Below, piece after piece: positions 484 to 64,000 of a stretch of DNA of 64,000 nt. The stretch's first letter is position 1. Each line of letters opens with the position of its first letter. Origin of the DNA: Halichondria panicea (taxonomy: Eukaryota > Porifera > Demospongiae > Suberitida > Halichondriidae); the NCBI RefSeq assembly GCF_963675165.1, contig NC_087377.1, positions 15,000,198 through 15,064,197 on the forward strand, written 5' to 3'. The translations under genes and the position numbers were made by a program. A model generated the notes under the pieces. That model was not told where the DNA came from and ran no database searches. It saw nothing but the letters and a program-made list of their open reading frames with translations.

Positions 484-3400
484 ATGAGACACAGAATTGC
501 TACTCTGATCCTGACAATAATCGTAATCACATTTGTTCACAAGAAAGCATCCTGCAATACCCAAATCACAGGTAGGACGAAAAACAAATAGGCCTTAAAT
601 TTAAATTTGAATTGTCTATTGATCCTATAGATGTGACCCCATCAAGTGCTGGCAATAGATTTGTGGTCGGTTTCCCCATAAATTTTGCTCTTGCAGAACA
701 GTTGTTCTTATTCATCACAAATCCAGAGTCAAGTGCTGTTAGCTTCACAATCACTCCAATTGATTTTAGCGGTAGTGTTTCAGCATCTTCTGCTACTGTA
801 AACATCCCATCCAGTTTTGAAGTTGTATCTATTAATGAAAGGGACAAGGGGATCCTTGTTGAAGCTAACGGAAACATCAATGTGTATGGGCTGTCTTATG
901 ATTCAGGTTCTGCAGATGCCTATTTAGCATTACCATGTACTGTAATGGCAGTGGATGAATACGAATATTATGGAATCTCCTATGGAACCTTTTGTAGTAT
1001 TATTTTGGTGGTGGCTTGTGAAAATGAAACTGTTATCAAATTCAATTCCTCAACAATAACACTCAATAGTATGGAAACCTATCAGATGGAAAGTAGTGAT
1101 AATGATCTCACAGGAACAAGAATAACAAGCTCCAAACCTTTGTCTGTATTTAGCGGACATGATTGTGCTAATATTCCTCAAGGTAACCAAGCTTGTGATC
1201 ACCTGGTTGAACAAGTGCCTCCGACTGTGACATGGGGCTCAAAATTCTTCGTAGCATCTCTTGAGGGTAGATCTTCTGGTGAACGTATTCGTGTTCTTAG
1301 TGCCCGAGCAGCAAGTGTAGCTGTGAATTGCAACACTAATGTATCAGTCAGTCAATTCCAGTTACAGAGTGGAGGGAGCTACCGAGAATTTGAAATACTT
1401 ATTAACAGTTTCTGTAGCATTGAATCCACTTCACCAGTACTGGTCGCACAGTATGCATATGGTGGTGCGAGTGATGGCGTGGGAGACCCATTCATGATGA
1501 TAATCCCTCCAATTGAGCAGTTTACAAATAACTATTTAGTCGAGAGTTTCACTAATTTCATATCCAACTATGTCACGGTGTATGTTTCTTCTGAGTTTTT
1601 TCAAACTGAACAGATATTATTAGACAATTCCATTGTTACTGGGTGGCAGAATGTTGTCTGTTCAAATGGAGAAGTTTGTGGCCACATAAGTAGAACAAAT
1701 GTGTCTACTGGAGCTCATTCTATCCGCCATCAAAACAGCTCAGCCGTTTTAGGTGTTTCAGTGTACGGATTCAACTCTCTTAACTCTCATGGTTACCCTG
1801 GAGGCATGAGGTTGTCTCCCATACAATGTAACTGTGGTCAAAATTCTATTTGTTTGAATAACATGGGACAGTTTAATTGTAGCTGCTTGATTGGATTTGG
1901 TGCTAAATTGACTGGAACTGATGGATTCACCTGTAATGGTAAGTTGAGTGTTTCTATAGTAATAGAAGAGGTCATGTCACTGTTTCTTTCTTTTCATTGC
2001 AGCCATAACTTGTCCTCTCTCGACTGATCCTACCAATGGCTCTGTGACATACAGTGCCACTGCTGATGAAAACAACACCTATGCCTTTGATGTGGTAGTT
2101 ACTTACAGCTGTTTCGCTGGATTTTCTCTTGTCGGCGACAATACAAGGAACTGCACTGGAGATGGCAGTAGCACTACTGGTGCTTTTGCTGGTATAGCTC
2201 CAATCTGTGCAGGTAGGAACTTACACAATATTTCAGGAGTTGTTATATTATAGGCTTCTCTACTACAGCTATAACATGCCCACCACTTTCCAATCTAACC
2301 AATGGCTCTCTGTCTTATTCGAATGTGCCTGGTCAAAACAACAGCTATGCTTTCAATGTAATGGCTACCTACAGTTGCGATACTGGATTTTCACTAGTTG
2401 ATAACAACACAAGGACTTGCACTGGAGATGGAAGTAGCACTAATGGTTCTTTTGATGGAGAATCACCAACTTGTGAAGGTGAGTCCATGAAAAATGCTAA
2501 ACTGTGCTCTAATATTCTATAACAGTCATTACCTGCCCTCCCCTGAGTGATCCTTCCAATGGCTCTGTGGTTTACAACAGTGATTTAGAATTTGGATCGC
2601 AAGCGATCTACAATTGTAACACTGGGTTTTTTCTAGTTGGTAATACGACCAGGACTTGTAGTGGAGATAGCAGTAACACTACTGGTTATTTTGATGGAGA
2701 AGCACCAACTTGTGAAGGTGAGCGTATGAAAAAAGTTTAAACCGTATAATTATAATATATACAGTCATTACCTGCCCTCCCCTGAATGATCCATCCAATG
2801 GCTCTGTGGTTTACAACATTGATTTAGAGTTTGGAACACCAGCAATGTACAGTTGTGACAATGGATTTTCTTTGGTTGGTAATACGACCAGGACTTGTAC
2901 TGGAGATGGCAGTAGTATTACTGGTTCTTTTGATGGAGAAGCACCAACTTGTGAAGGTGAGTGTCCATGCATGCAGTTAATTACATTCTGCAATAAATAG
3001 CATGTGTCTTGTGACTCAAGGTGCACTCCATCATTCCATATGCAGCCATAACCTGCCTTGCCCTAAGTGACCCTATGAACGGCCATGTAGACTATGAAGG
3101 TATTTCTGCTAATAACAACCAATTCCAAATTCCTTTTGGTACGATGGTCACCTACACTTGTGTCATTGGGTTTGCTCTGATTGGTAATGACATAAGATTT
3201 TGCACTGGAGATGGTAGTAGCACTACTGGTGCATTTAGTGGAATTGATCCAACTTGTGAACGTAAGTGACACCAACATGTTTTGTTTTAGCTTACACTAA
3301 TTTTCCTATGTAGCCATAACCTGTCCTCCTTTGATGAGCCCAACCAATGGCACTGTGTCCTACGGCGGAGTTGCTACTGATGTAAATGGCAACTTATCGT

Positions 3401-6400
3401 TCAATGTAATGGCTACCTACAGTTGTGACACTGGGTTTTCTCTGGTTGATAACAGCTCAAGGATTTGCACTGGAGATGGGATGAGTGTCAACGGTGGTTT
3501 TAATGGAACAGCTCCAACTTGTGACCGTGAGTGCTCTTCACACACTTAACTTGCAACTGTAAACCCTCTCCTCTCTCCAACTGTCTACAGCTATAACCTG
3601 CCCTGCTGTGGCAGCGTCGAGTAGTGGCAGTATTGACTTTGGTGGAGCCTCATCTGATGGAAACAGCAACTATGCCTTTGATGTGGTAGCTAATTACAAT
3701 TGTGATAATGGATTTTCTCTGGTTGGTAATAGCTCGAGAACGTGTACTGGAGACGGCAGTAGCACTACTGGTGCTTTCGATGGAGCAGCTCCAACTTGTG
3801 AACGTAAGTGCATATGCTTCTGTTATTGGACATTTTTAACTCCCCTAACAATCCACCCCCACCAGCTATAACTTGCCCTGGTGTGCCCATACCAAACAAC
3901 GGTACTATTGACTTTGGTGGCGCCTCACGTGATGAAAATGGCACCTATATTTTTGCTGTGGTGGCTACCTACAGTTGTGATACTGGGTTTTCTCTTGTCG
4001 GGAATAACACAAGAACTTGCACCGGAGATGGCAGTAGCACTACTGGTGTTTTTGATGGTATAGCTCCAATCTGTGCAGGTAGGAACTTACACAATATTTC
4101 AGGAGTTGTATATTATAGGCTTCTCTGCTACAGCTATAACATGCCCACCACTTTCCAATCTAACCAACGGCTCTCTGTCTTATTCGAATGTGCCTGGTCA
4201 AAACAACAGCTATGCTTTCAATGTCAAGGTTACCTACAGTTGTGATACTGGATTTTCACTAGTTGACAACAACACAAGGACTTGCACTGGAGATGGAAGT
4301 AGCACCACTGGTTCTTTTAATGGAGAAGCACCAACTTGTGAAGGTGAGTTAATGAAAACGCTAAACTGTATACTCTATTTATAATTATATATACAGTTAT
4401 TACCTGCCCTCCTCTGAACGATCCTTCCAACGGCACTGTGACTTACAATGTTGACAGTGATAATTTAGAGTTTGGAACACAGGCAATATACAGTTGTGAC
4501 AATGGATTTTCTCTGGTTGGTAATACGACTAGGACTTGTACTGGAGATGGCAGTAGCACTACTGGTGCTTTTGATGGAGCAGCTCCAACTTGTGAACGTA
4601 AGTGCATATGTTTCTGTTATTGGACATTTTTAACTCCCCTAACAATCCACTCCCACCAGCCATAACTTGCCCTGGTGTGCCCATACCAAACAACGGTACT
4701 ATTGACTTTGGTGGCGCCTCACGTGATGAAAATGGCACCTATATTTTTGCTGTGGTGGCTACCTACAGTTGTGACACTGGGTTTTCTCTTGTCGGGGATA
4801 ACACAAGAACTTGCACCGGAGATGGCAGTAGCACTACTGGTGTTTTTGATGGTATAGCTACAATCTGTGCAGGTAGGAACTTACACAATATTCGAGGAGT
4901 TGTATATTATAGGCTCTTCTCTACTACAGCTATAACATGCCCACCACTTTCCAATCTAACCAACGGCTCTGTTTCTTATTCGAATGTGCCTGGTCAAAAC
5001 AACAGCTATGCTTTCAATGTCGAGGCTACCTACAGTTGTGATACTGGGTTTTCACTAGTTGACAACAACACAAGGACTTGCACTGGAGATGGAAGTAGCA
5101 CCACTGGTTCTTTTAATGGAGAAGCACCAACTTGTGAAGGTGAGTTAATGAAAACGCTAAACTGTATATATACTCTATTTATAATTATATACAGTTATTA
5201 CCTGCCCTCCTCTGAACGATCCTTGCAACGGGACTGTGACTTACAATGTTGACAGTGATAATTTAGAGTTTGGAACGCAGGCAATATACAGTTGTGACAA
5301 TGGATTTTCTCTGGTTGGTAATACGACCAGGACTTGTACTGGAGATGGCAGTATCACTACTGGTTCTTTTGATGAAGAAGCACCAACTTGTGAAAGTGAG
5401 TATCCAGTTAACATTCTGCATAAATATTGTGTGTGTCTTTGTGACTCAAGGTGCACTCTATCATTCCATGCAGCCATAATTTGCCCTGCTCTAAGTGACC
5501 CAATAAATGGTAAAATAGAGTATGATGGTGGAGATACATCTACTAACAACAACCAACTCCAAATTCCTTTCGATACGATGGCCACCTACACTTGTGTCAT
5601 TGGTTTTGCTCTGATTGGTAATGACATAAGAACATGTACTGGAGATGGCAGTAGCACTACTGGTGCATTTAGTGGAATTGATCCAACTTGTGAACGTGAG
5701 TGAGACCAAATAATTATGTTTGTTTCAGCTTACTAACCTAAATTTAATTATGCAGCCATAACCTGTCCTCCTTTGATTAGCCCAACTAATGGCACTGTGT
5801 CTTATGGTGGAGTTGCTACTGATGTAAATGGCAACTTTACGTTCAATGTAATGGCTACCTACAGTTGTGACACTGGGTTTGCTCTGGTTGATAACAGCTC
5901 AAGGATTTGCACTGGAGATGGGATGAGTGTCAATGGTGGCTTTAATGGAACAGCTCCAACTTGTGACCGTGAGTGTACTCTTCACACACTTAATTTGCAA
6001 CTATTAACCCTCTCCTCTCCAACTGTCTACAGCTATAACCTGCCCTGCTGTGGCAGCGCCGAGTAATGGCAGTATTGACTTTGGTGGAGCCTCATCTGAT
6101 GGAAACAGCAACTATGCCTTTGATGTGGTAGCTAATTACAATTGTGATAATGGATTTTCTCTGGTTGGTAATAGCTCGAGGACGTGTACTGGACTTGGCA
6201 GTAGCACTACTGGTGCTTTTGATGGAGCAGCTCCATCTTGTGAACGTAAGTGCATATGCTTCTGTTATTGGACATTTTAACTCCCCTCCTATTCCACCCC
6301 ACCCACCAGCCATAACTTGCCCTGGTGTGCTCATACCGAACAACGGCAATATTGACTTTGGTGGCGCCTCACTTGATGAAAATGGCACATATATTTTTGC

Positions 6401-7657
6401 TGTGGTGGCTACCTACAGTTGTGACACTGGGTTTTATCTGGTTGGTAACGACTCACGGACTTGCACTGGAGATGGCAGCAGTATTATTGGTACTTTTGAT
6501 GGGTCGGCTTCAACTTGTCAGCGTGAGTTACATGCATGGCTTTAAATTACATGCCGAATCACATGCACCTATTCTTTTTCAAAAGTTATCACCTGCCCTC
6601 CGTTGACTATTCCTTATAATGGTGCTGTGACATACAATTCTACTGCTGATGAAAACGGCAACTATGATTTTTATGTGATGGCTACCTACAATTGTGACAC
6701 TGGCTTTTTTCTGGTTGGTGACAACTCAACAACTTGCACTGGAAACGGCAGTAGCATTACTGGTACCTTCGATGGCCTAGTTCCTATCTGTGAAGGTAAG
6801 CTATAATAACAATTTTAGGGACTCAATTTGAATAAGCATTTCTGCTACATACAGCTATAACATGCCCACCACTTTCCAATCTATCCAACGGCTCTCTGTC
6901 TTATTCGAATGTGCCTGATCAAAACAACAGCTATGCTTTCAATGTAATGGCTACCTACAGCTGCAACTCTGGGTTTTCTCTGGTTGGTAACAAGACAAGG
7001 AATTGCTCTGGAGATGGCAGTAGTACTACTGGTTCATTTGATGCCTCTGCTCCAACTTGCAAAGGTAAATACTATAATACTTCTGTGTTTGGAAACAAAC
7101 TAATTTTTCAGCAATAACATGTTCTCCGATTGCCGACCCAATTAATGGGACTGTAATCTATTCTTCTGACGTTGATGGTTTGGGAAATTATGCCTTCAAT
7201 GTGACGGCTAACCACAGTTGTGACACTGGCTTTGATCTGGTTGGTAACAATCCAAGGACTTGCAATGGAGATGGAAGTAGCATTACCGGTGCATTTGATG
7301 GAGAGGATCTGAAATGTGAAGGTGCAAACAGTATGAGTGTGTACAGATTATAATGACAATAAGGCAAACCCTACATAATTCCTTTAACGACCAAAAAAAC
7401 ATTGATACAATTTTAAGTACTCCATAATTATAGGCTCTCGTAAGTAATGAAAAACAATGAATTTGTGTTTTTACTCATGCACAGTTTTAGTTGCCTCTTC
7501 TGCATCACTTATCCTCGGTGTTGTCATACCTGTTGTGAGTGTGGTGGCTGTACTAGCTCTAGTTGTGCTGGGTGGAGCTGTCTATGGATATATTCAAGTG
7601 ATAAGCCATCTGTTGAAGTTAAAAAAGCCTGAAACTGGGACTGCTAAACTACTGTAA
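484..7657 (+). CDS. Gene 1: IgGFc-EGF-CCP(x20)-TM surface protein
   Basis: Predicted type I membrane protein, 22 introns, 1917 residues. Exons: signal peptide 484-571; IgGFc-binding plus EGF 631-1938; CCPs 2003-2212, 2269-2478, 2526-2717, 2765-2956, 3046-3261, 3314-3526, 3591-3803, 3866-4078, 4134-4343, 4397-4597, 4660-4872, 4930-5139, 5195-5395, 5474-5695, 5756-5968, 6033-6245, 6310-6522, 6586-6795, 6855-7064, 7112-7321; TM 7485-7657. All introns are phase 1 and the summed exons are a multiple of three. The signal peptide is MRHRIATL plus a hydrophobic core. The IgGFc part (residues 30 to about 428) has SSKPLSVFSG and EQVPPTVTWGSKF. The six-Cys EGF is about residues 429-465. Each CCP has four Cys (ITC, YSC, RTC, PTC). 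The tail is KLKKPETGTAKLL. The last CCP may end at 7330 instead (GTATGA donor). Cassettes h-b-d are duplicated and CCP10 is chimeric. Family assignment is firm; adhesion or recognition function is inferred. Confidence 0.9.
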
Positions 7658-8580: not shown

Positions 8581-8610
8581 TTAACTATGGACTCATAATT
8601 ATAATTATAC

Positions 8611-10475
8611 ATTTGCTCACAAGAATGTGTAATACCCAAATCACAAGTAGAATTCTTGAATTGTCCATTGCTTCATCTTATAGATGTGAAGTGCTGGCAA
8701 CAACTCTCTCGTTGACTTCCCTAGTTAGTGGTCAATTGCAATGGGATAAAATTTCTTATTCATCCACAAACCTAAAGTTAAGTAATATTTTCCCGGTCAC
8801 AATTGATCGTGGGAGCATTTCAATCATCCAGTTTTTGGGGGGATCTTTGTTGAAGCTGATGTAAATGAAAGCACTGCAGGTGCTGATGCCTCGGTGGAGA
8901 TGCCAAAGCTACATAACATAAAGCTACTAATAGCATTTATACGCATGACATGTTGAACTTAATTGCTGCATGCAAACTCAAGGAGTGGGTAATGATCAAC
9001 CTTGATTGTTGTTAAAAACGATCGATGCCAAAAGTTCAAGTCTAAAATTAATTAGGCTGCATGCATTAGCAGAGCCTTGCAGTTCTCTTCTCACTCTTGC
9101 AGTTACCAATAGCTAGCGTTCTAGTACAGAGTTTACTACTAAGTAGAATAGCAACACTCAGTAAACAAATTTGGCTACGTGCTCTTCTGAAAAGGCTGCA
9201 ATGGCATTCCAAGTAAGCAAAACTAGGCATAACTCGAGAACGAAGCATTATTTTGCAAATCCACGAATTAAAATCCAAGTAAACATGACTAGAAGCCTAT
9301 AGAAACTCTTACTTGCACTTGATTCATCCTTGAGCAGCTGTAGCAGTCTACACACACATACAGACACACATGCACACACACACACAGACACACAAACACA
9401 CTACCGTATACCTCGCTTGCGCATGCGCACTGAGGCATAATTATAAGATCAAGGATGTATACTATTTTCTGCGGACATGTTACAGTGTATATACTATGAT
9501 GGCAGTGGATGAACGAATTATTATGGAGTCTCGTATGATGCCGGGATCATTGGTATAATCTCCTATGTATACCCTTTTGTAGTGTTATTTTGTTGGTGGC
9601 TTGTGAAAATGAAACTGTTGTCAAATTCAATTCTTCCTCAACAATAGTATGGAAACGTATCAGTTTGAAGGGATGTGATGATCTCACACGAATAAGAATA
9701 ACTATAGCTCCAAACCTTTGTCTGTGTTTAGTGGATCTGATTGTGCTAATGTTTCTCGAGATATAAACTACTGTGACCACGTGGTTGAACAAGTCTTTCC
9801 GACTGTGACATGCATGGGGTTCAAAATTTCTCGTACCATCTCTCGAGGGTAGATCTTCTGGTGAACGTATTCGTGTTCTTAGTGCCCGAGCATGCAATTG
9901 TGAACTGCAACACTGACATATCAGTCAGTGAATTCCAGTTACAGAGTAGAGGGAGCTTTAGAGAATTTGAAGTTGAAAGTTTCTGTTGCATTGAATCCAC
10001 TTCTCCAGTACTGGTCGCCCAGTATGCATATGGTGGTACGAGTGATGGCGTGGAAGACCCATGCATCCATGATGATAATCCCTCCAATTGAGCAGTTTAC
10101 AAATAACTATTTAGTCGAGAATTTCACTAATTTCTCATCCAACTATGTCACGACGTTCAGACAATTCTGTAGTTACTGGATGGCAGAAAGTTGTCTGTTC
10201 AAATGGAGAAGTTTGTGGCCTCATAAGTAGAACAAAATATGTTTACTGGAGATCATTCTGTTCGCCATTAAAACAACTCAGCTGTTCTAGGTGTTTCGGT
10301 GTACAGATTCGCTATACAGCCAGTTCTAGTTACCCTGGAGGCATGAGATTATCTCCCATACAATGCAACTGTGCATGGTCAAAAATCTATTTGTTTAAAT
10401 AACATGAGACAGTTTAATTGTAGCTGCGCTAGCTTGAATGGATTTGGTGCTAAACAGATGGATTCACCTGTAATG
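8611..10475 (+). pseudogene. Decayed IgGFc-EGF gene copy (relic 1)
   Basis: The end of a signal-peptide exon is recognisable at 8611-8648 (CTCACAAGAATGTGTAATAC, start codon lost, donor damaged). IgGFc-like sequence follows at about 8684-8862. A stretch of unrelated DNA (8863-9490) is followed by the C-terminal two thirds of the IgGFc exon and a broken EGF, about 9495-10475, still ending at a GTAAGTTG donor. Many small insertions, deletions and in-frame stops break the reading frame. No CCP exon follows. Near-copies lie at 45256-48060 and 56590-57907, so the decay predates duplication of the block. Confidence 0.85.
9352..9403. repeat. CA-rich simple repeat
   Basis: Imperfect (CA)n interspersed with CACATACAGACA variants. 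It lies in the non-homologous spacer inside IgGFc relic 1. The paralogous position in relic 3 (about 45971-46003) has a shorter version. Confidence 0.8.
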
Positions 10476-11744
10476 GTAAGTTGAGTGTTTAAGTTTATAT
10501 AGATGTATATCAAGTAGAACAAATATACGTGGTAGCAGCCACCTAGTTTCTACTGCACTCTATAGTAAGAGCTATCTTTTGGGTTTACAGATAAAAGACA
10601 CTAGTCTATCAGTATGTGTGTGAAGAGCACTCTTGTACGATCTCAAGTTGCATGTAGCTGTTTCATTAAAGCCACCATTCACAAAAAATAAAATGACCAC
10701 GTGCAGTAAGCATACAAATCACGTTTGTTAGCATTAAAGTTGCTGTGATCAGAGCTAGAATGAGTTCACACCAAATATCAACCTTTTCTTCAAGTTTTAA
10801 TCTCACTAAGAGTTTTCTTTTAATACCATGTTGCTTTCTACAACTTGGTATTGGAGGCTGTATTTAACTATGGGTGAGTGTAAGTCATACCTATAGATAG
10901 TAACCATGGTAATGGTGGAAGGGATCAATACATTTTGAAGATGCGTGAACAGTTATTCAAGTTACAAGAAATGATAGAGTAAGTCGCCTAACCTTGTCAG
11001 ACATCAATGCATCATAAAAGTGTGTAATGCACGAACAAAACAAATCAATTATTGCACACTCTATAATAGATGGCTGTAACCAGTATATATACATCTATTT
11101 TACTGCTAAAAATCTTTCTCCTTCATTGAAGAGAAACGAGAGTTCTCTGATACAGCGTAGATACAAGATGCAGTTTCTATCACCTTCACAACAGCCTTGT
11201 GGTGGAAACCTTGGTGGGCAGCCGCGTGAACTTCTTCATGCACAGGCAGGACACAATGAGCTTCACATAGCACACAGCGCTTAGCACATCGCGCATGACC
11301 CATTGAAAATTGTTACATAGCTATAGCGCATATATAGCACATCACACATGGCGTATCGGACATCTTCGCATATAGCGCATATAGCACTTAGCACATAATC
11401 TGAGTTGTAAACACAAACACATGGCAAGTTGTATATATGCAGCTAGAAGTCTAGCTATAGATCTAGTTTTTACTGTGTATACGTCTTTCTCCCTCCTTCG
11501 GCGCATAGTACATCACACGTGGCGTATTGGAAATCTTTGCATATAGTGCATAGCACATAGCGCGACCTTCTGTTAGAGTGTACAATTAGTCTTGTGCATT
11601 ACACAACCTTTTACTGACGCACTTTGATGTCTGACAGAGTTCGGCAACTTACTCTAAGTAAGTTTTGTTTATCTTATCAGTGTGAGTTACATGGCTATAA
11701 GTTCTGTAGTATAACTGAATCACCTCATTCGTATTTTTCAAAAG
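10476..11744. other. Duplicated spacer after IgGFc relic 1
   Basis: No gene recognised. The segment recurs at 48061-49324 and, in reverse orientation, inside 29498-30510. It contains a run of AGCGCATA / GCACATAG-like words at 11275-11420. A 65-codon reverse frame at 11106-11303 (begins MGHARCAKRC) recurs in the other copies, but I see no known family. The last 100 bp resemble the intron before a type-j CCP exon (GTGAGTTACATGGCTATAAG ... TTCAAAAG). Confidence 0.55.
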
Positions 11745-12330
11745 CTATCATCTGCCCTCCCTTGACTATTTCTTTTAATGGTTTTGTGACGCACAATATT
11801 CTACTGCTGATGAAAACGGCAACTATTTTATATGCTTTTTATATGAGGGCTATACCTATACTGGATTTTTCCTGGTTGGTAACAACTCAACAACTTGCAC
11901 TGGAAACGGCATTACTGGTGCCTTAATTATGCTTAGTCGTAAGACATGCAATTTATAGTTGCAGTTGCACAATATTCTACTGCTGATGAAAACGGCAACT
12001 ATTTTATATGCTTTTTATATGAGGGCTACTTATACAATTGGGACACTGGGTTTTTCCTGGTTGGTAACAACTCAACAACTTGCACTGGAAACGGCATTAC
12101 TGGTGCCTTAATTATGCTTAGAGATTCTAATAGTAAGACATGCAATTTACAGTTGCAGTTGCCTCATCTTCATTACTTATCCTCGATGTTGTCATACCTG
12201 TTGTGAGTGTGGTGGCTGTACTAGCTCTAGTTGTACTGGGTGTTTGCTCATCTGTTGATTTTAAAAGATCCACAAACTGGAATTTCCAAACTATGGAACA
12301 GTATAGGAACCATGGAATGCTACAAGACCA
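11745..12330 (+). pseudogene. Relic: type-j CCP exon plus TM exon, with internal duplication
   Basis: A decayed type-j CCP exon starts after the TTCAAAAG acceptor at 11745. Part of it is tandemly doubled (see 11792-12143). A TM exon follows from about 12152, beginning with the codons for VAVASSS-like sequence and keeping VVIPVVSVVAVLALVVLG, but it is damaged after VVLG so that the GGAVYGY segment is lost. Sister copies at 49325-49734 and 58333-58779 keep the TM exon intact. No signal peptide or IgGFc exon is attached, so it is not expected to be a working gene. Confidence 0.8.
11792..12143. repeat. 176-bp tandem duplication in relic
   Basis: The block starting CACAATATTCTACTGCTGA at 11792 is repeated starting at 11968, two copies with a period of 176 bp. 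It covers most of the type-j CCP relic and the intron start. The sister relics at 49325 and 58333 have a single copy, so the duplication is local and recent. Confidence 0.8.
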
Positions 12331-21459: not shown

Positions 21460-21957
21460 GTATGAGCTATTTAATGAGCTACAGAATTGCTACTCTGGAC
21501 CATGACATAATCACGATATCAAAGTGTGCATGCACCTCATTCGAACCATACCAATATCAAACCATAAAACATCAAAGCCAACCAATCTTGTTTTCGTGTC
21601 TGTGTGTGTGTGTGTGTGTTTCCCCACTTTGAACCAGCTAATTACATGGATACAAACATTTTCAAGCAGTTTCATCTTTATTGCTATCTAGTCAGACACA
21701 TTCGAGCTTGTACCATTAGCTAGGCCTCAGGAAACCTACACTCTAATGCAAGTACCTAGAATGAAGCTAATGAAGTGTGTTATTGTCACTCTTACTTGTA
21801 TTGAGTGACAAACCTCACATACCTTCCAGGAACTAGCTATCATTTATTATTGCATGTGGTAGACCTCTACAAGAAACTGTAATTTATAGCTAATCTAGTG
21901 AGCATTGTTTGTCTCACTGAATAGACAGTTAATCAGTAACTAGATCTAGCTGCTAAA
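21460..21957 (+). promoter_or_regulatory. Class A upstream region of gene 3
   Basis: Near-identical to 1-483 and 35540-36124, beginning GAGCTATTTAATGAGCTACA. It holds a (TG)n run of about 10 units at 21601-21619, 338 bp before the ATG. Position and co-duplication with the gene suggest promoter and 5' UTR; no core element is evident. Confidence 0.45.
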
Positions 21958-49203: not shown

Positions 49204-49734
49204 TTGATGTCTGACAGAGTTCGGCAACTTACTCCAAGTAAGTTTTGTTTATCTTATCAGTGTGAGTTATATGGCTATAAGTTCTGTAGTATAACTGAAT
49301 CACCTCATTTGTATTTTTCAAAAGCTATCACCTGCCCTCCCTTGACTATTCCTTTTAATGGTTTTGTGACGCACAATTCTACTGCTGATGAAAACGGCAA
49401 CTATGCTTTTTATATGGGGGCTACCTAAAATTGTGACACTGGGTTTTTCCTGGTTGGTAACAACTCAAAACGGCATTACTGGTGCCTTAATTATGCTTAA
49501 AGATTCTAATAGTAAGACATGCAATTTTTATTTTCTATAGTTGCAGTTGCCTCATCTTCATCACTTATCCGAGATGTTGTCATACCTGTTGTGAGTGTGG
49601 TGGCTGTACTAGCTCTAGTTGTACTGGGTGGAGCTGTCTATGGATACATTCAAGTGATAAGCCATCTGTTCAAGTTAAAAGATCCACAAACTGGAACTGC
49701 CAAACTATGGAACATAGGAACCATGGAATGCTGA
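49204..49734 (+). pseudogene. Relic: type-j CCP exon (stop) plus intact TM exon
   Basis: A CCP exon starts at 49325 and has a TAA at 49426-49428 where others encode the Tyr of ATYNC. It then lacks the CTG/Cys region. The TM exon 49541-49734 is open and encodes VAVASSSSLIRDVVIPVV and the whole membrane helix, ending in KDPQTGTAKLWNIGTMEC. The tail differs from the full genes. No 5' exons are attached. Confidence 0.8.
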
Positions 49735-50065: not shown

Positions 50066-50870
50066 TCTTGTAATGCCCACATCACAGGTAACACTGCATG
50101 ACTTCTTGTATGTTTTATAGACTGATGTGACAATGTTAATAAGTGATAAAATAATTTGTAGTGGTTCCCCATAAAAGAGAAAGACATGCAGTTGTTCTTG
50201 TGTATCACAAATCCAGAGCTAAGTGCAATTCAGTGGGAATGTTTTCACTCTTCAACTGTATAGTAAGCATATTTTGGTTGGAACACCAAAAAACTGAGAA
50301 ACTGTTGGACACCATAGACACCACGGGCACTACAGAACACCACTGAGAAACTGTAGGACACCATAGACATCACGGGCACTACAGAACACCACTGAGAAAC
50401 TGTAGGACACCATAGACACCACGGGCACTACAAAACACCACTGAGAAACTGTAGGACACCATAGACATCACGGGCACTACAGAACACCACTGAGAAACTG
50501 TAGGACACCATAGACACCACAGGCACTACTGAACGCCACTGAGAAACTGTAATACACCGTAGATACTATAGTACACCACGGGGCACTACTAAATAGTGTT
50601 GATAGACACTATTTGACACTACAAAAGACACCATGTTGGACATTATAGATACTATACTATAAATTATAGTTAAAACGCTGACACAGCTTATTTCGTGGTT
50701 CTTACATCCAGTACTAATCCATATTTTCCTAAAATTAATATTCTCTATAATTATGGAGTGCAAGGAAAAGGGATTCTTGTTGAAGCCTACTTTATAAACT
50801 GTCAGATGCCTATTTAGCACTACCGTACACGTGTACCAGAATGGCAGTACGAATATTCCAGTATTATAAA
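50066..50870 (+). pseudogene. IgGFc relic interrupted by minisatellite (relic 4)
   Basis: Copy of 12713-14010: signal-exon end 50066-50088, IgGFc start about 50161-50265, minisatellite, then the second IgGFc piece at about 50750-50870 (GGGATTCTTGTTGAAGCC, GATGCCTATTTAGCACTACC). It lacks the G-rich insertion present in the first copy. Confidence 0.75.
50291..50590. repeat. 49-bp minisatellite, 5 units
   Basis: ACCATAGACAC starts at about 50311, 50360, 50409, 50458 and 50507, an exact 49-bp period, plus degenerate ends. Same unit as 12948-13140. Confidence 0.92.
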
Positions 50871-51201: not shown

Positions 51202-54200
51202 ATGACCTACAGAATTGTTACATTGACCCTGTCCATAGTCATAATCACATTTGCTCACAAGAAAGCATTCTGTAATGCCCAAATCACAGGTAGGACTGAG
51301 TTTTATATGTGTATGTAGTAGTCTGGAATTGTTCATTGATCGTAGATGTGACCCTATCAAGTGCTGGCAACAAATTTGTGGTCGGTTTCCCCAGAAATTT
51401 TGATCATGAAGCAGAACAGTTGTTCTTATTTATAACAAACCCAGAGTCAAGTGCTGTTAGCTTTACAGTCACTCCAATTGATAGCAGTGGGAACGTTTCA
51501 ACATCTTCAATTACTATAAACATACCATTAAATTTTGAAGTTGTATCTGTCGATGAAAGGAACAAGGGGATCCTTGTTGAAGCTAACGGAAACATCAGTG
51601 TGTATGGGCTGTCTTACGATTCTGGTTCTGCAGATGCCTATTTAGCATTACCATGTACTATAATGGCAGTGGATGAATACGAATATTATGGAATCTCCTA
51701 TGTACCCTTTTGTAGCGTTATTTTGTTGGTGGCTTGCGAAAATGAAACTGTTGTCAAATTCAATTCTGTAACAATAACACTCAATAGTTTGGAAACGTAT
51801 CAGTTTGAAAGTAGTACTCAGGATCTCACAGGAACAAGAATAACTAGCTCCAAACCTTTGTCTGTGTTTAGTGGATCTGATTGTGCTAATATTCCTCAAG
51901 ATATAAACTACTGTGATCACCTGGTTGAACAAGTGCCTCCGACTGTGACATGGGGCTCAAAATTCCTCGTAGCATCTCTCAAGGGTAGATCTTCTGGTGA
52001 ACGTATTCGTGTTCTTAGTGCCCGAGCAGCAAGTGTAGCTGTGAACTGCAACACTAACGTATCAGTCAGTGAATTCCAGTTACAGAGTGGAGGGAGCTAC
52101 CGAGAATTTGAAATACTTATTAACAGTTTCTGTAGCATCGAATCCACTTCACCAGTACTGGTCGCACAGTATGCATATGGTAGTGAGAGTGATGGCGTGG
52201 GAGACCCATTTATGATGATAATCCCTCCAATTGAGCAGTTTACAAATAACTATTTAGTCGAGAGTTTCACTAATTTCTCATCCAACCATGTCACGGTGTA
52301 TGTTTCTTCTGAGTTTTTTCAAACTGCACAAATATTTTTAGACAATTCCATTGTTACGGACTGGAGGAATGTTGTCTGTGCAAGTGGAGAGATTTGTGGC
52401 CATATAAGTAGAACAAATGTGCCTACTGGAGCTCATTCTGTCCGCCATCAAAACAGCTCAGCCGTTTTAGGTGTTTCAGTGTACGGATTCAGCTCTTCCA
52501 ACTCTTCAGATTCTTATGGTTACCCTGGAGCCATGAGGTTATCTCCCATACATTGCAACTGTGGTCAAAATTCTATTTGTTTGAATAACATGGGACAGTT
52601 TAATTGTAGCTGCTTGAATGGATTTGGTGCTCAATTGACTGGAACTGATGAATTCACCTGTAATGGTAAGTTGAGTGTTTCTACTAATAGAAGGGTCATG
52701 TCACTGTTTCTTTCTTTTCATTGCAGCCATAACCTGTCCTCCATCTACTGCTCCTTCCATTGGCTCTGTGACATACAGTGCCACAGCTGATGAAAATAAC
52801 ACCTATGCCTTTGATGTGGTAGCTACCTACAACTGTTTCGCTGGATTTTCTCTTGTCGGCGACAATACAAGGAACTGCACTGGAGATGGCAGTAGCACTA
52901 CTGGTGCTTTTGCTGGTATAGCTCCAATCTGTGCAGGTAGGAACTTACACAATATTTCAGGAGTTGTATATTATAGGCTTCTCTTCTACAGCTATAACAT
53001 GTCCTCCACTTTCTAATCCAACAAACGGCTCTCTGTCTTATTCGAATGTGCCTGGTCAAAACAACAGCTATGCTTTCAATGTCGAGGCTACCTACAGTTG
53101 TGATACTGGATTTTCACTAGTTGACAACAACACAAGGACTTGCACTGGAGATGGAAGTAGCACTAATGGTTCTTTTGATGGAGAAGCACCAACTTGTGAA
53201 GGTGACTCCATGAAAAACGCTGAACTGTGCTCTAACATTCTATATATACAGTCATTACCTGCCCTCCCCCGAGTGATCCTGTCAATGGCGCTGTGGTTTA
53301 CAACAGTGATTTAGAGTTTGGATCGCAAGCTATCTACAATTGTAACACTGGGTTTTTTCTAGTTGGTAATACGACCAGGACTTGTAGTGGAGATAGCAGT
53401 AACACTACTGGTTATTTTGATGGAGAAGCACCAACTTGTGAAGGTGAGCGTATGAAAAAAGTTTAAACCGTATAATTATAATATATACAGTCATTACCTG
53501 CCCTCCCCTGAACCATCCTTCCAATGGCTCTGTGCTTTACAACATTGATTTAGAGTTTGGAACACCAGCAATGTACAGTTGTGACAATGGATTTTCTCTG
53601 GTTGGTAATACGACCAGGACTTGTACTGGAGATGGCAGTAGTATTACTGGTTCTTTTGATGGAGAAGCACCAACTTGTGAAGGTGAGTGTCCATGCATGC
53701 AGTTAATTACATTCTGCAATAAATAGCATGTGTATTGTGACTCAAGGTGCACTCCATCATTCCATATGCAGCCATAACCTGCTTTGCCCTAAGTGACCCT
53801 ATGAACGGCCATGTAGACTATGAAGGTATTTCTTCTAATAACAACCAATTCCAAATTCCTTTTGGTACGATGGCCACCTACACTTGTGTCATTGGGTTTG
53901 CTCTGATTGGTAATGACATAAGATTTTGCACTGGAGATGGCAGTAGCACTACTGGTGCATTTAGTGGAATTGATCCAACTTGTGAACGTAAGTGACACCA
54001 ACATGTTTTGTTTTAGCTTACACTAATTTGTCCTATGTAGCTATAACCTGTCCTCCTTTGATGAGCCCAACCAATGGCACTGTGTCTTATGGCGGAGTTG
54101 CTACTGATGTAAATGGCAACTTTACGTTCAATGTAATGGCTACCTACAGTTGTGACACTGGGTTTTCTCTGATTGATAACAGCTCAAGGACTTGCACCGG

Positions 54201-55928
54201 AGATGGAATGAGTGTCAATGGTGGCTTTAATGGAACAGCTCCAACTTGTGACCGTGAGTGCTCTTCACACACTTAACTTGCAACTGTAAACCCTCTCCTC
54301 TCTCCAACTGTCTACAGCTATAACCTGCCCTGCTGTGGCAGCGTCAAGTAGTGGCAGTATTGATTTTGGTGGAGCCTCATCTGATGGAAACAGCAACTAT
54401 GCCTTTGATGTGGTAGCTAATTACAATTGTGATAATGGATTTTCTCTGGTTGGTAATAGCTCGAGGACGTGTACTGGAGATGGCAGTAGCACTACTGGTG
54501 CTTTTGATGGAGCAGCTCCAACTTGTGAACGTAAGTGCATATGTTTCTGTTATTTTTAACTCCCCTAACAATCCACCCCACCCACCAGCCATAACTTGCC
54601 CTGGTGTGCTCATACCGAACAACGGCAATATTGACTTTGATGGCGCCTCACTTGATGAAAATGGCACATATATTTTTGCTGTGGTGGCTACCTACAGTTG
54701 TGACACTGGGTTTTATCTGGTTGGTAACGACTCACGGACTTGCACTGGAGATGGCAGTAGTATTATTGGTACTTTTGATGGGTCGGCTTCAACTTGTCAG
54801 CGTGAGTTACATACATGGCTTTATATGACATACTGAATCACATATATTCTTTTTTCAAAAGTTATCACCTGCCCTCCGTTGACTATTCCTTTTAATGGTG
54901 CTGTGACGTACAATTCTACTGCTGATGAAAACGGCAACTATGATTTTTATGTGATGGCTACCTACAATTGTGACACTGGCTTTTTTCTGGTTGGTGACAA
55001 CTCAACAACTTGCATTGGAAATGGCAGTAGCATTACTGGTGCCTTCAAAGGCCTAGTTCCAATATGTGAATGTAAGTTATAATAATTTTAGGGACTCAAT
55101 TTGAATAAGCATTTCTGTTACATACAGCTATAACATGCCCATCACTTTCCAATCTATCCAACGGCTCTCTGTCTTATTCGAATGTGCCTGATCAAAACAA
55201 CAGCTATGCTTTCAAAGTCGAGGTTACCTACAGCTGCAACTCTGGGTTTGCTCTGGTTGGTAACAAGACAAGGAATTGCTCTGGAGATGGTAGTAGTACT
55301 ACTGGCTATTTTGATGCGTCTGCTCCAACTTGCAAAGGTAAATACTATAATACTTCTGTGTTTGGAAACAAACTGTTTTTGCAGCAATAACATGTTCTCC
55401 TATTGCCGACCCAATTAATGGGACTGTAATCTATTCTACTGAGGCTGATGGTTTGGGAAATTATGTGTTCAATGTGACGGCTAATCACAGTTGTGACACT
55501 GGGTTTGATCTGGTTGGTAACAACCCAAGGACTTGCAGTGGAGATGGAAGTAGCATTACCGGTGCATTTGATGGAGAGGATCTGAAATGTGAAGGTGCAA
55601 ACAGTATTAGTGTGTACAGATTATAATGACAATAAGGCAAACCCTACTGTACACAATTCATTAATTAATTTAACGACCAAAAATACATTGATACAATTTT
55701 AAGATTAATTATAGGCTTTCATAAGTAATGAATTTTTGTTTTTACTCATGCACAGTTTTAGTTGCCTCTTTTGCATCACTTATCCTCGGTGTTGTCATAC
55801 CTGTTGTGAGTGTGGTGGCTGTACTAGCTCTAGTTGTACTGGGTGGAGCTGTCTATGGATACATTCAAGTGATAAGCCATCTGTTGAAGTTAAAAAAGTC
55901 TGAAACCGGGACTGCTAAACTACTGTAA
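51202..55928 (+). CDS. Gene 5: IgGFc-EGF-CCP(x11)-TM surface protein
   Basis: Predicted 1289-residue type I membrane protein (1292 with the alternative donor). Exons: signal peptide 51202-51289 (MTYRIVTLTLSIVIITFAHK); IgGFc-EGF 51346-52665; CCPs 52727-52936, 52992-53201, 53252-53443, 53491-53682, 53772-53987, 54041-54253, 54318-54530, 54589-54801, 54862-55071, 55128-55337, 55385-55594 (or 55603); TM 55756-55928. The sum is 3870 nt and every intron is phase 1. The cassette order a-b-c-d-e-f-g-i-j-k-l is the simplest in the window; gene 1 has the same order with an inserted h-b-d, h-b-d, e-f-g stretch. So gene 5 is my reference for the basic domain plan. No lesions seen. Confidence 0.9.
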
Positions 55929-56589: not shown

Positions 56590-57907
56590 ATACGTTTGCT
56601 CACAAGAATGTGTAATGCCCAAATCACAAGTAGAATTCTTGAATTGTCCATTGCTTCATCTTATAGATGTGAAGTGCTGGCAACAACTCTCTCGTTGACT
56701 TCCCTAGTTAGTGGTCAATTGCAATGGGATAAAATTTCTTATTCATCCACACAAACCCAAAGTTAAATAATATTTTCCCGGTCACAATTGATCGTGGGAG
56801 CATTTCAATTTCTTCAATCATCCAGTTTTTGGGGGATCTTTGTTGAAGCTGATGTATATTATAAGATCAAGGATGTATATTAACTATTTTCTGCGGACAT
56901 GTTACAGTGTATGTACTATGATGGCAGTGGATGAATGAATTATTATGGAGTCTCGTATGATGCTGGGATCCTTGGTATAATCTCCTATGTACCCTTTTGT
57001 AGTGTTATTTTTTGTTGGTGGCTTGTGAAAATGAAACTGTTGTCAAATTCAATTCTTCCTCAACAATAGTATGGAAACGTATCAGTTTGAAAGGGATGAT
57101 GATCTCACACGAATAAGAATAACTATAGCTCCAAACCTTTGTCTGTGTTTAGTGGATCTGATTGTGCTAATGTTCCTCGAGACATAAACTACTGTGATCA
57201 CCTGGTTGAACAGGTGCCTCCGACTGTGACATGGGGCTCAAAATTTCTCGTACCATCTCTCGAGGGTAGATCTTCTGGTGAACGTATTTGTGTTCTTAGT
57301 GCCCGAGCAGCAACTGTAGTTGTGAACTGCAACACTAACATAACAAATTACTATATCAGTCAGTGAATTCCAGTTACAGAGTGGAGGGAGCTTCAGAGAA
57401 TTTGAAGTTGAAAGTTTCTGTTGCATTGAATCCACTTCTCCAGTATTGGTAGCCCAGTATGCTATGGTGGTACGAGTGACGGCGTGGAAGACCCATGCAT
57501 CCATGATGATAATCCCTCCAATTGAGCAGTTTACAAATAACTATTTAGTTGAGAATTTCACTAATTTCTTATCCAACTATGTCACGACGTTCAGACAATT
57601 CTGTAGTTACTGGATGGCAGAAAGTTGTCTGTTCAAATGGAAAAGTTAGTGGCCTCATAAGTAGAACAAAATTTGTTTACTGGAGATCATTCTGTTCGCC
57701 ATTAAAACAACTCAGCTGTTCTAGGTGTTTCGGTGTACAGATTCGCTACAGCCAGTTCTAGTTACCCTGGAGGCATGAGATTATCTCAAATACAATGCAA
57801 CTGTGCATGGTCAAAAATCTATTTATTTAAATAACATGAGACACTTTAATTGTAGCTGCACTAGCTTGAATGAATTTGGTGCTAAACAGATGGATTCACC
57901 TGTAATG
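56590..57907 (+). pseudogene. Decayed IgGFc-EGF copy after gene 5 (relic 5)
   Basis: Signal-exon end 56590-56630, IgGFc start about 56665-56855, then directly ATGATGGCAGTGGATGAATG and the C-terminal IgGFc part to a GTAAGTTG donor at 57908. It is shorter than relics 1 and 3, because the spacer is missing, as in the copy after gene 3. Its central stretch (57139-57300) is less decayed than in the others, but frameshifts remain (for example at 57345 and 57465). Confidence 0.85.
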
Positions 57908-58267
57908 GTAAGTTGAGTGTTTAAATATATAGAACAAATATACGTGGTAGCAGCCTAGTTTCTACTGCACTCTATAGTAAGAGCTATCTTTTGGGTTTAC
58001 AGGTAAAAGACACTAGTCTATCAGTATGTGTGTGAAGAGCACTCTTGTACGATCTCAAGTTGCATGTAGCTGTTTCATTAAAGCCACCATTCACAAAATA
58101 ATAAAATGACCACATGCAGTAAGCATACAAATCACTTTTGTTAGCATTAAAGTTGCTGTGCATGATCAGAGCTAGAATGAGTTCACACCAAATATCAACC
58201 TTTTCTTCAAGTTTTAATCTCACTAAGAGTTTTCTTTTAATACCATGTTGCTTTCTACAACTTGGTA
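57908..58267. other. Shortened spacer after relic 5
   Basis: Like 10476-10850 up to ACAACTTGGTAT, then it jumps to the GAGTTAGTTACATGGCTATA sequence. About 800 bp present in the other spacers are deleted. No gene. Confidence 0.55.
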
Positions 58268-58779
58268 TGAGTTAGTTACATGGCTATAAGTTCTGAGTAT
58301 AACTGAATCACCTCATTTGTATTTTTCAAAAGCTATCACCTGCCCTCCCTTAACTATTCTGGTTTTGTGACGCACAATTCTACTGCTGATGAAAACGGCA
58401 ACTATGCTTTTTATATGAGGGCTACCTAAAATTGTGACACTGGGTTTTTCCTGGTTGGTAACAACTCAACAACTTGCACTGGAAACGGCATTACTGGTGC
58501 CTTAATTATGCTTAGAGATTCTAATAGTAAGACATGCAATTTTTATTTTCTACAGTTGCAGTTGCCTTATCTTCATCATTTATCCGAGATGTTGTCATAC
58601 CTGTTGTGAGTGTGATGGCTGTACTAGCTCTAGTTGTACTGGGTGGAGCTGTCTATGGATACATTCAAGTGATAAGCCATCTTTTAAAGTTAAAAGATCC
58701 ACAAACTGGAACTGCCAAACTATGGAACAGTAGGAACCATGGAATGCTGAGAACCATGCATGCATGCATGGAACCATAA
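58268..58779 (+). pseudogene. Relic: type-j CCP exon (stop) plus intact TM exon
   Basis: The CCP exon starts at 58333 with the same TAA (58427-58429) as the copy at 49426. The TM exon starts at 58556 and is open to 58779 (VIPVVSVMAVLALVVLGG, then KLKDPQTGTAKLWNSRNHG). It shares the altered tail with 49541-49734. Confidence 0.8.
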
Positions 58780-59320
58780 CATATTAAGGTATTTCAGTCC
58801 ATGAAAAACTGATCACTGTCAACATATCAATAGGTATTTAAAGAATTATCATTTTGCTAATGACTTTTACTCGATTGTTGATCACTAAACTCACTTTTAG
58901 CACAACAATAATAATTGCCTTTATGGACATCTGGGGAATTAAGACCGAATATTCGTATGTGCATGGTATTGCATGGTATGAATATTTTAACGAAGTGATT
59001 ATCAGAGACATCTGGACTCAATACAATTAACTGAGATCTAATAGTATATAACCGGAGACTGAGTAGCTCAACAATAAAATATTGATCTTGTAATGCCCAC
59101 ATCACAGGTAACACTGCATGACTTCTTGTATGTTTTAAATTAACTATAGACTGATGTGACAATGTTAATAAGTGATAAAATAATTTGTAGTGGTTCCCCA
59201 TAAAAGAGAAAGGCATGCAGTTGTTCTTGTGTATCACAAATCCAGAGCTAAGTGCAATTCAGTGGGAATGTTTTCACTCTTCAACTGTATAGTAAGCATA
59301 TTTTGGTTGGAACACCAAAA

Positions 59321-60010
59321 AACTGAGAAACTGTTGGACACCATAGACACCACGGGCACTACAGAACACCACTGAGAAACTGTAGGACACCATAGACACC
59401 ACGGGCACTACTGAACGCCACTGAGAAACTGTAATACACCATAGACACCACGGGCACTACAGAACGCCACTGAGAAACTGTAATACACCATAGACACCAC
59501 GGGCACTACTGAACGCCACTGAGAAACTGTAATACACCATAGACACCACGGGCACTACAGAACACCACTGAGAAACTGTAGGACACCATAGACACCACGG
59601 GCACTACTGAACGCCACTGAGAAACTGTAATACACCATAGACACCACGGGCACTACAGAACGCCACTGAGAAACTGTAATACACCATAGACACCACGGGC
59701 ACTACTGAACGCCACTGAGAAACTGTAATACACCATAGACACCACGGGCACTACTGAACGCCACTGAGAAACTGTAATACACCATAGACACCACGGGCAC
59801 TACAGAACGCCACTGAGAAACTGTAATACACCATAGACACCACGGGCACTACAGAACACCACTGAGAAACTGAGGACACCATAGACACCACGGGCACTAC
59901 TGAACGCCACTGAGAAACTGTAGGACACCATAGACACTACGGGCACTACTGAACGCCACTGAGAAACTGTAACACACCGTAGATACTATAGTACACCATA
60001 GGGCACTACT
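59321..60010. repeat. 49-bp minisatellite, 13 units
   Basis: CCATAGACAC recurs from 59341 every 49 bp to about 59928 (one unit is a base shorter). Units alternate between GAACACC and GAACGCC endings and between GGACACC and ATACACC starts, showing higher-order duplication. It is far longer than the arrays at 12948 (3) and 50291 (5). Confidence 0.93.
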
Positions 60011-61091: not shown

Positions 61092-61095
61092 TATA

Positions 61096-61675: not shown

Positions 61676-64000
61676 ATGATGAGCTACAGAATTGCTACTT
61701 TGACCCTGTCAATATTCATAATCACATTTGCTCACAAGAAAGCATTCTGTAATGCCCAAATCACAGGTATAGGACTGAGTTTTTTGTATAATTATAGATC
61801 TATGTATGTATAGTAGTCTTAAATAATAATTGTCCATTGATCCTAGATGTGACCTCATCAAGTGCTGGAAACAAATTCGCCGTTGGTTTTCTTAGAAATT
61901 TTGATCCAGGAGATAATGATTTGTTTTTGTTCATCACAAACCCAGAGTCAAGTACTGTTAGTTTCACAGTCACTCCAATTAATCTTAGTGGTAGTGTTTC
62001 AACATCTTCTACTATTGTAAACATCCCTTCCAGTTTTGAAGTTTTATCTGTCATTGAAAGAAACAAGGGAATCATAGTTGAAGCTGGCGGAAGTGTCAAT
62101 GTGTATGGGATTTCTTCCCATATTTTTAGTGCAGATGCCTATTTAGCATTACCATGTATAAAAATGGCAGTGGATGAGTACGAATATTATGGAATCTCGT
62201 ATGATATCCTTAGTAGTAGCTTTCCTAGTGTGATCTTGTTTGTGGCTTGTGAAAATGAAACTGTTGTCAAATTTGATTCCTTAACAATAACACTCGACAG
62301 TATGGAAACCTATCAGATGGAAAGTGTTAATGATATCACAGGAACAAGAATAACAAGCTCCAAACCTTTGTCTGTGTTTAGTGGATCTGAGTGTGCTAAT
62401 GTTCCTCAAGGTATAGGAGCTTGTGACCACCTGGTTGAACAAGTGCCTCCTACTGTGACATGGGGCTTAAAATTCCTCGTGGCATCTCTCGAGGGTAGAT
62501 ATTCTGGTGAACGTATTCGTGTTCTTAGTGCCCGAGCAACAAGTGTAGCTGTGAACTGTAACACTGACATATTAGTCAGTGAATTCCAGTTACAGAGTGG
62601 AGGGAGCTTCAGAGAATTTGAATTACCTATTAGCAGTTTCTGTAGTATTGAATCCACTTCTCCAGTACTGGTTGCCCAGTATGCATATGGTGGTGAGAGT
62701 GATGGCGTAGGAGACCCATTCATGATGATAATCCCTCCAATTGAGCAGTTTACAAATAACTATTTAGTCGAGAGTTTCACTATTTTCACATCCAACTATG
62801 TCACGATGTATGTTTCTTCTGAGTTTTTTCAAGCTGCACAAATATTGTTAGACAATTCCATTGTTTCTGGGTGGCAGAAAGTTGTTTGTTCAAACGGAGA
62901 AGTTTGTGGCCACATAAGTCGAACAAGTGTGTCTACTGGAGCACATTCTATCAGCCATCAAAACAGCTCAGCTGTTCTAGGTGTTTCAGTGTACGGATTC
63001 GGCTCTTTCAGTTCTTATGGTTACCCTGGAGGCATGAGATTATCTCCCATATACAATGCAACTGTGGTCAAAATTCTATTTGTTTAAATAACATGGGACA
63101 GTTCAACTGTATAGCTGCTTGAATGGATTTGTTGCTTCATTGTCTGAAACAGATGAAATTGTCTGTACCAGTAAGTTGAGTATTTAATTGAAGATATCAT
63201 TCACTTTTTCCTTCTTTTCATTGCAGTCATAACCTGTCCTCCCTCGACTACTCCTTCCAATGGCTCTGTGACATACAGTGCCATTGCTAATCAAAATGAC
63301 ACCTATGCTTTTGATGTGGTAGCTACCTACAACTGTTTCGCTGGGTTTTCTATTGTCGGCGACAATACAAGGAACTGCACTGGAGATGGCAGTAGCACTA
63401 CTGGTGCTTTTGCTGGTATAGCTCCAATCTGTGCAGGTAGGCTTACACAATATTTCAGGACTTGTGTATACAGGCTTCTCTACTACAGCTATAACATGCC
63501 CTCCACTTTCAAACCCAACAAACGGCTCTGTGTCATATTCAAATGTGCCTGGTCAAGGCAACAGCTATGATTTCAATGTCGAGGCTACCTACAGTTGTGA
63601 TATTGGATATTCACTAGTTGATAACAACACAAGGACTTGCACTGGAGATGGAAGTAGCACTACTGGTTCTTTTGATGGAGAATCACCAACTTGTGAAGGT
63701 GAGTCAATGAAAAACACCAAACTGTACTCCATTTTATTTATATACAGTCATTACCTGCCCTCGCCTGAGTGATCCTTCCAACGGCACTGTGACTTACAAT
63801 GTTGAGAGTGGTAATTTTGAGTTTGGAACGCAAGCAATATACAGTTGTGACAATGGATTTTCTCTGGTTGGTAATACGACCAGAACTTGTACTGGAGATG
63901 GCAGTAGCACTACTAGTTCTTTTGATGGAGAAGCACCAACTTGTGAAGGTGAGTATCCAGTTAACATTCTGCAATAAGAATAATGTATGTGTCTTGTGAC
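61676..64000 (+). pseudogene. Gene 6: IgGFc-EGF-CCP, 5' part, frame broken in EGF
   Basis: Start of another family member, cut by the window end. Exons: signal peptide 61676-61766 (MMSYRIATLTLSIFII); IgGFc-EGF 61847-63170; CCPs 63227-63436, 63489-63698, 63748-63948. It is the closest relative of gene 2, with the inverted segment in normal orientation. Two AT dinucleotides are inserted relative to gene 2, at about 63050-63053 and 63109-63112, a net shift of one frame. The IgGFc frame therefore ends at 63085-63087, before the EGF is complete. The IgGFc domain itself and the three CCPs are intact. If the insertions are sequence errors this is a normal gene; as read, it could only give a truncated soluble IgGFc-domain protein. 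Confidence 0.75.

Follow-up and report, generated by a model that had tools for sequence, protein, structure and literature searches.

A cluster of genes in the sponge Halichondria panicea may well encode single-pass membrane adhesion proteins laid out like selectins, with an IgGFc head in place of the lectin, a reading that we hold with moderate confidence on the basis of the gene sequences. The window analysed here is a stretch of 64,000 nucleotides without any N on contig NC_087377.1 (C1:15000198-15064197), and positions given without a contig count from its first letter. In the reading we prefer, the IgGFc head would grip a cell-surface ligand, for which a glycoconjugate of microbes, mucus or adjacent cells is the likeliest candidate; the stalk of CCP units would set the reach of the head from the membrane, and the tail of about 18 residues would only anchor the protein, so that any signal would need a partner. 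Double-headed forms may bridge or raise avidity. The array would grow by segmental duplication, stalk length would shift by duplication and deletion of blocks of CCP exons, fusion of neighbours would give double-headed proteins, heads would be kept alike by purifying selection and gene conversion, and copies would be discarded by frameshift.

Full gene models were made for the four intact genes A, C, D and E only, which have 23, 16, 18 and 14 exons from the ATG of the signal peptide to the stop and encode 1917, 1798, 1937 and 1289 amino acids. All 67 introns are GT-AG (22/22 in A, 15/15 in C, 17/17 in D and 13/13 in E) and 45-168 nucleotides long. The first exon has 88 nucleotides in each of the four genes and every internal exon is a multiple of 3; thus, all junctions are phase 1 and the gain or loss of an exon keeps the frame. 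The Pfam scan covered ten open reading frames (ORFs) of the window and identified the head as IgGFc_binding (PF17517, 3.7e-51 to 1.1e-53 in the four long copies) and the stalk units as Sushi/CCP (PF00084). A and E are single-headed, whereas C and D each carry two IgGFc-EGF heads, with 5+7 and 7+7 CCPs. The last exon of all four genes encodes a strongly hydrophobic C-terminal helix (mean Kyte-Doolittle 2.85-3.11), and inspection of the tail by eye revealed no immunoreceptor tyrosine-based activation or inhibition motif (ITAM, ITIM) or other signalling motif in its roughly 18 residues. The intact genes and the parts of gene A are:

484-7657, plus strand: gene A, intact, without internal stop; signal exon 484-571, IgGFc-EGF exon 631-1938, 20 CCP exons 2003-7321, transmembrane/short-tail exon 7485-7657
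631-1938, plus strand: head of A, IgGFc_binding (PF17517, 1.2e-53) and EGF-like (EGF_CA, below cut-off) in one exon, phase 1-1 by its ends
7485-7657, plus strand: transmembrane exon of A, encoding a single helix of strong hydrophobicity, whose Kyte-Doolittle profile peaks at 3.11 (residue 1870 of 1917), followed by about 18 cytoplasmic residues
21958-28336, plus strand: gene C, intact, double-headed; signal exon 21958-22045, head 22105-23412, 5 CCPs 23460-24710, head 24822-26132, 7 CCPs 26180-28004, transmembrane exon 28164-28336
36125-43015, plus strand: gene D, intact, double-headed; signal exon 36125-36212, head 36269-37576, 7 CCPs 37624-39377, head 39495-40817, 7 CCPs 40865-42674, transmembrane exon 42843-43015
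51202-55928, plus strand: gene E, intact; signal exon 51202-51289, head 51346-52665, 11 CCPs 52727-55594, transmembrane exon 55756-55928

The cluster lies where the preliminary description of the window had placed it and is far above chance. A hidden Markov model (HMM) of the CCP built from the window gave 81 matches on the plus strand of the whole window, 73 of them full-length, and none on the minus strand, with no match in each of 20 first-order Markov randomisations. The corresponding HMM of the IgGFc head matched 25 pieces on the plus and 3 on the minus strand and nothing in five randomisations. That account also holds for the six paralogs on the same strand, of which A, C, D and E have uninterrupted coding and B and G are frameshifted, for the decayed partial copies between them (listed below) and for the symmetric phase-1 exons.

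The array is larger than the window. It spans about 145 kb (C1:14980931-15125898), beginning about 19 kb before the window, with the last transmembrane exon about 62 kb past it, and comprises 14 copies that start with a signal exon, all on the plus strand. Among the ten copies other than A, C, D and E, the heads of B, G and J are frameshifted and one CCP of Z contains a stop; H, I, K, L, M and N were checked exon by exon, and some of them have odd junctions or lack a matched transmembrane exon. From the spacing of their exons, genes G and H (about 61.7-70.4 kb) look like a segmental duplicate of J and K (93.0-102.6 kb, in window coordinates), about 31.3 kb further on. The search for further members that had been proposed was extended to the genome (131,455,214 bases, 39 contigs) and gave 122 PF17517 matches, distributed over eight contigs. 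At C1:16.5 Mb, one gene carries a head and a Sushi domain in a single open frame; thus, the combination is not confined to the array.

The order of the CCPs in the stalk follows a grammar. Clustering of the 172 full-length CCP exons of the array gave 18 types, and in letters for these types the stalk reads L-JBB-MDEF-JB-FJB-MDEF-IJK in A, L-JBB-MDEF-IJK in E, L-DE-JB and then L-DEF-IJK in C, and L-DEF-JBB and then L-DEF-IJK in D. The window yields seven such strings, one each from A, B and E and two each from C and D. Their 61 junctions contain only 18 distinct neighbour pairs, whereas 2000 shuffles within genes gave 44 on average and never fewer than 37. Random exon shuffling is therefore rejected in favour of a conserved order. 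The paralogs had been described as differing in CCP number and order: the number does vary, but the order is a conserved theme in which blocks are duplicated or lost. As judged from these strings, changes in stalk length arise by duplication and deletion of CCP blocks. One such block is found in A:

3808-5394, plus strand: intragenic tandem duplication of the three-CCP block F-J-B, 3808-4596 against 4602-5394, 96.1% over 795 bp

Genes C and D each look like a fusion of two neighbouring genes, since a remnant of a signal-peptide exon, which would be the scar of the fusion, lies between their halves:

24729-24766, plus strand: remnant within the intron that separates the two halves of C, matching part of the signal exon of A at 86.8%
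39396-39434, plus strand: remnant between the halves of D, 84.6% match to part of the signal exon of A

One could speculate that the remnant in C (24729-24780) is spliced in via a cryptic AG, which would bring a stop within a few codons and yield a soluble single-headed form. Short remnants resembling the signal exon also precede A, C and D, at 17-55, 21474-21512 and 35592-35623, about 470-530 bases before the respective first exon.

Selection on the heads was examined with counting methods in 13 unbroken head exons, for which the power at single codons is low. The ratio of nonsynonymous to synonymous substitution rates (dN/dS) was 0.29-0.55 in 72 of the 78 head pairs (the six pairs among K, L, M and N were left out), the highest value among 29 sliding windows of the head was 0.84, and the ratio on the tree was 0.43. 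One of 456 head codons showed a nonsynonymous excess (8 changes versus 0, p 0.039, uncorrected) and 32 showed a synonymous excess. For the CCPs, the corresponding ratio of proportions (pN/pS) was 0.36-0.49 in the ten types with at least four usable members, the other 8 of the 18 types being left out. Thus, neither head pairs, sliding windows and codons nor the ten CCP types revealed positive selection on the ectodomain.

Heads also appear to share sequence. Shared runs of variable sites with p <= 0.001 (uncorrected) were found in 9 of the 78 head pairs, the strongest between the head of A and the first head of C (C1), with 198 variable sites versus a permutation maximum of 96. Between genes C and D, synonymous divergence (dS) is 0.010 for the heads C1 and D1 and 0.100 for C2 and D2. 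Within C, the heads C1 and C2 agree to 99-100% in the five final blocks of nine and to 90% in the first. Exchange of sequence among heads in conversion-like tracts is likely. To judge by these substitution patterns, head evolution is a matter of purifying selection and of birth-and-death with homogenisation, not of hypervariability. The resemblance to diversifying recognition loci that had been noted therefore stands for the genomic form, which is tandem and co-oriented with intact and decayed copies and modular phase-1 exons; positive selection on the ectodomain, however, was not found.

The head itself has relatives in prokaryotes. A scan with a single head sequence found none among 11 prokaryote stretches, whereas a scan with the diverse alignment A1 identified six among 75, corresponding to six loci that encode head relatives 32-38% identical to the first head of the window. 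The domain architecture was determined for five of the six loci (L038, open at both ends, was left out), and in all five ORFs the head is located near the N terminus of a long protein, accompanied by PKD repeats (two), a Por_Secre_tail or type IX-type sorting tail (three) or mucin-binding domains (one). Two cysteines and the run C-D-H..E-Q.P-P...W-G are invariant in all 11 aligned head sequences. The adhesin-like setting of the prokaryote relatives together with the invariant residues favours the head being an old extracellular binding or adhesion domain. None of 52 pattern stretches in viral contigs matched, and no Rfam match was obtained in the window.

Several observations weigh against the selectin-like reading or parts of it. 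The EGF match is below the Pfam cut-off (18-20 bits versus 27), with the six-cysteine pattern present by eye, and no relative of the head with a solved structure came up by sequence at E up to 1. Assignment of the signal peptide was made by eye; of the four intact genes, A and C have an N-terminal hydrophobic peak above 1.6 but D and E do not, and A and C also have weaker internal hydrophobic peaks of 1.65-1.78. No correction was applied in the conversion test, which takes the rate to be even over the whole exon; a slowly evolving middle would mimic part of the signal, and the block starting near the CDHLVEQ motif is 94-100% alike to the nearest copy in 16 of 16 copies.

It might also be possible, though it is unlikely, that the array encodes an innate family of microbe-binding receptors that works by dose and breadth and not by hypervariable sites. 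IgGFc-binding is in the domain list of a figure legend on pattern-recognition receptors of Halichondria panicea (PMC8242945), and a review depicts, in the passage cited, complexes of FCGBP and TFF3 binding bacteria (PMC9354016). The genome has large complements of SRCR (at least 213 matches, with 150 of 1364 first-look candidates scored) and Sushi (at least 150 matches, with 150 of 4112 scored). However, the short tail has no evident signalling motif and ligand binding is only putative, and such receptors would be a special case of the adhesion reading.

A diversifying self/non-self locus, in which copy number and heads differ between individuals and set compatibility, seems doubtful. The tandem array with pseudogenes and duplicates of mixed age would fit, and Botryllus fester, which also comprises sushi-bearing membrane proteins, varies in gene content between haplotypes (passage cited of PMC12065747). 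For self/non-self recognition by an array of membrane proteins with sushi domains, fester is the nearest precedent in function. On the other hand, no ratio above 1 was observed in any of the 72 pairs or 29 windows, the single codon with a nonsynonymous excess is uncorrected, and the heads are partly homogenised. Moreover, the main text of a transcriptome paper on grafting in Amphimedon does not mention IgGFc, sushi, CCP, EGF or SRCR (PMC5450542). An allorecognition role is possible and unsupported. The suggestion of a candidate self/non-self or microbe receptor family is thus partly supported: the genomic form is real, but the selection evidence points away from a diversifying locus.

Purifying selection and partly homogenised heads would also be expected of structural or mucus-like coat proteins similar to FCGBP, whose many copies would be kept for quantity; the IgG Fc-binding domain of FCGBP, which is a mucus protein, is N-terminal (passage cited of PMC9354016). 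With a transmembrane anchor and a CCP stalk but no VWD-C8-TIL repeats in the scanned frames, this explanation is rather doubtful. Quite improbable is a sponge recognition locus that would generate individual-specific sets of surface adhesins, with different heads and stalk lengths, by conversion among heads, CCP block duplication and fusion into double-headed forms. Like cnidarian Alr and Botryllus fester, it would be a solution of independent origin, and its head would belong to a domain family that also occurs in bacterial adhesin-like proteins. That the cluster is largely decaying and A, C, D and E are merely still unbroken is very improbable, for although B, G and, beyond the window, J carry different frameshifts while being 94-97% alike and several old relics exist, four lesion-free genes of 1289-1937 codons, dN/dS well below 1 and the 32 codons with synonymous excess among the 13 unbroken heads argue against it.

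The broken copies and relics of the window are:

9551-12242 (approximate), plus strand: old relic with broken IgGFc, CCP and transmembrane remnants, pieces in several frames
14550-20095, plus strand: gene B, a pseudogene with signal exon and transmembrane exon, IgGFc broken up over shifted frames and 13 CCP matches, of which two are halves of one split CCP
29418-30977 (approximate), no single strand: head relics, a small piece on the plus strand and the main part inverted
34331-35170 (approximate), plus strand: two complete and two partial CCP exons standing by themselves; a weak piece of a head lies at 34007
47149-49707 (approximate), plus strand: old relic; broken head, CCP piece, transmembrane remnant
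56667-58722 (approximate), plus strand: old relic; broken head, CCP piece, transmembrane remnant
61679-64000, plus strand: gene G, of which the window contains the 5' part; the signal exon is followed by a head that shifts frame near the end of the EGF, and the transmembrane exon lies outside, at window coordinate 65758

Relics are duplicated as well, since 9553-11968 and 47142-49550 are 96% alike. A frameshift shared among B, G and J was looked for and not found, and the different lesions in spite of the high likeness of these copies suggest that they broke independently. In block-wise comparisons the copy closest to a head is sometimes one of B, G and J, as for block 6 of H, which is 95% alike to B and equally to K; common ancestry accounts for this as well as donation from a pseudogene would. 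The pseudogenes that had been called reservoirs exist, and donation from them to intact genes is putative. A tandem repeat with a period of 49 bases is located beside two of the old relics, at 50195-50664 (5 register steps) and 59224-59938 (10), and was perhaps copied with them. Between C and D, 31566-32144 encodes a fragment of a DEAD/DEAH-box helicase (PF00270, E 1.4e-15) that is RecQ-like by eye and possibly derived from a mobile element.

Related sequence was also observed elsewhere in the genome. Past the array, about C1 15.138 Mb (L032:3487-6448), I-set/Ig_3 and Sushi domains are encoded in what might be another receptor gene, and about 165 kb past the array C1:15290542-15292411 (minus strand) contains CCP exons 80-85% like an array CCP exon. 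The same degree of likeness was found for CCP exon sequence at C11:5627628-5627726 (minus strand), beside a PF17517 match. A divergent IgGFc gene at C5:1956000-1963999 (L034) has a weak, sub-cut-off Calx-beta match and, by eye, a CCP-like frame near its head. Upstream of the array lies an open frame of 1937 codons with Ephrin_rec_like repeats (L029:3561-9371). Finally, C1:5280527-5280718 (L035) is a nuclear copy of part of mitochondrial COX1, the sole COX1 match reported in the assembly; it has two TGA at tryptophan positions, which all four animal mitochondrial codes tried read as tryptophan and which therefore do not point to sponges in particular. Taken together with the very short introns, the SRCR and Sushi complements and a genome of 131 Mb, they would fit a demosponge.

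The molecules behind self/non-self and microbe recognition in sponges are poorly known. The locus provides a defined set of surface proteins, anchored to a chromosome, whose history can be read from the conserved stalk grammar, the fusion scars and the lesions that each broken copy has to itself. Two questions become testable with it: has a layout like that of selectins evolved around a different head, and do arrays of such receptors vary from one individual to another or stay uniform? In the latter case, these would be genes for adhesion or capture rather than for identity.

Among known recognition systems, the core proteins of the sponge aggregation factor are built from Calx-beta and Wreath domains, and no Calx-beta was found in the ten ORFs scanned. 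The cnidarian Alr family has polymorphic Ig-like ectodomains; membership in it fails because these ORFs contain no Ig domain. Bacterial surface or secreted proteins with PF17517 resemble the sponge proteins in having the head near the N terminus of a long protein of extracellular type, and differ in carrying PKD repeats, a sorting tail or mucin-binding domains instead of EGF, CCPs and a transmembrane helix. In the receptor repertoire of Halichondria panicea, IgGFc-binding and Sushi are both in the domain list of the Figure 1 legend, which gives neither a layout of head, EGF, CCP and transmembrane helix nor a genomic array (PMC8242945). The statement that no named system is known with exactly this domain combination agrees with searches of the open-licence literature (subscription papers and preprints lie outside it), in which no paper on an IgGFc-EGF-CCP-transmembrane family was found.

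FCGBP shares the N-terminal IgGFc_binding domain (E 1.2e-53 in A) but is mucin-like with VWD-C8-TIL repeats (passage cited of PMC9354016), whereas the proteins described here have a CCP stalk and a transmembrane helix. Membership in FCGBP fails on the strong C-terminal hydrophobic helix and on the VWD-C8-TIL repeats, none of which were detected in the ten window ORFs. Botryllus fester/FcoR is likewise a multigene locus of sushi-bearing membrane proteins, but fester has an Ig domain, one sushi and three transmembrane helices, no IgGFc head, and is polymorphic and tested in histocompatibility (passage cited of PMC12065747). Membership in this family fails as well, with no Ig in the ten window ORFs, many CCPs and one transmembrane helix.

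Selectins have the lectin head and the EGF in separate exons, whereas here both are located in one exon. The head ORFs scanned with Pfam contain no C-type lectin and have PF17517 instead; for lack of the lectin domain, which defines the selectin family, the sponge proteins cannot be counted as members, and the likeness is claimed in layout and working only. The passages cited of PMC7355470 describe selectins as an N-terminal lectin followed by EGF, 2-9 consensus repeats, a transmembrane helix and a short tail. The sponge proteins differ from this in the IgGFc_binding head, which takes the place of the C-type lectin, and in the number of CCPs, which is 11-20 in the single-headed A and E versus the 2-9 of selectins (passages cited of PMC7355470), C and D being double-headed. 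With the vertebrate selectins E, L and P they share the order of head, EGF (here a cysteine pattern and a sub-threshold match), a variable number of CCPs, one transmembrane helix and a short tail (PMC7355470, same passages).

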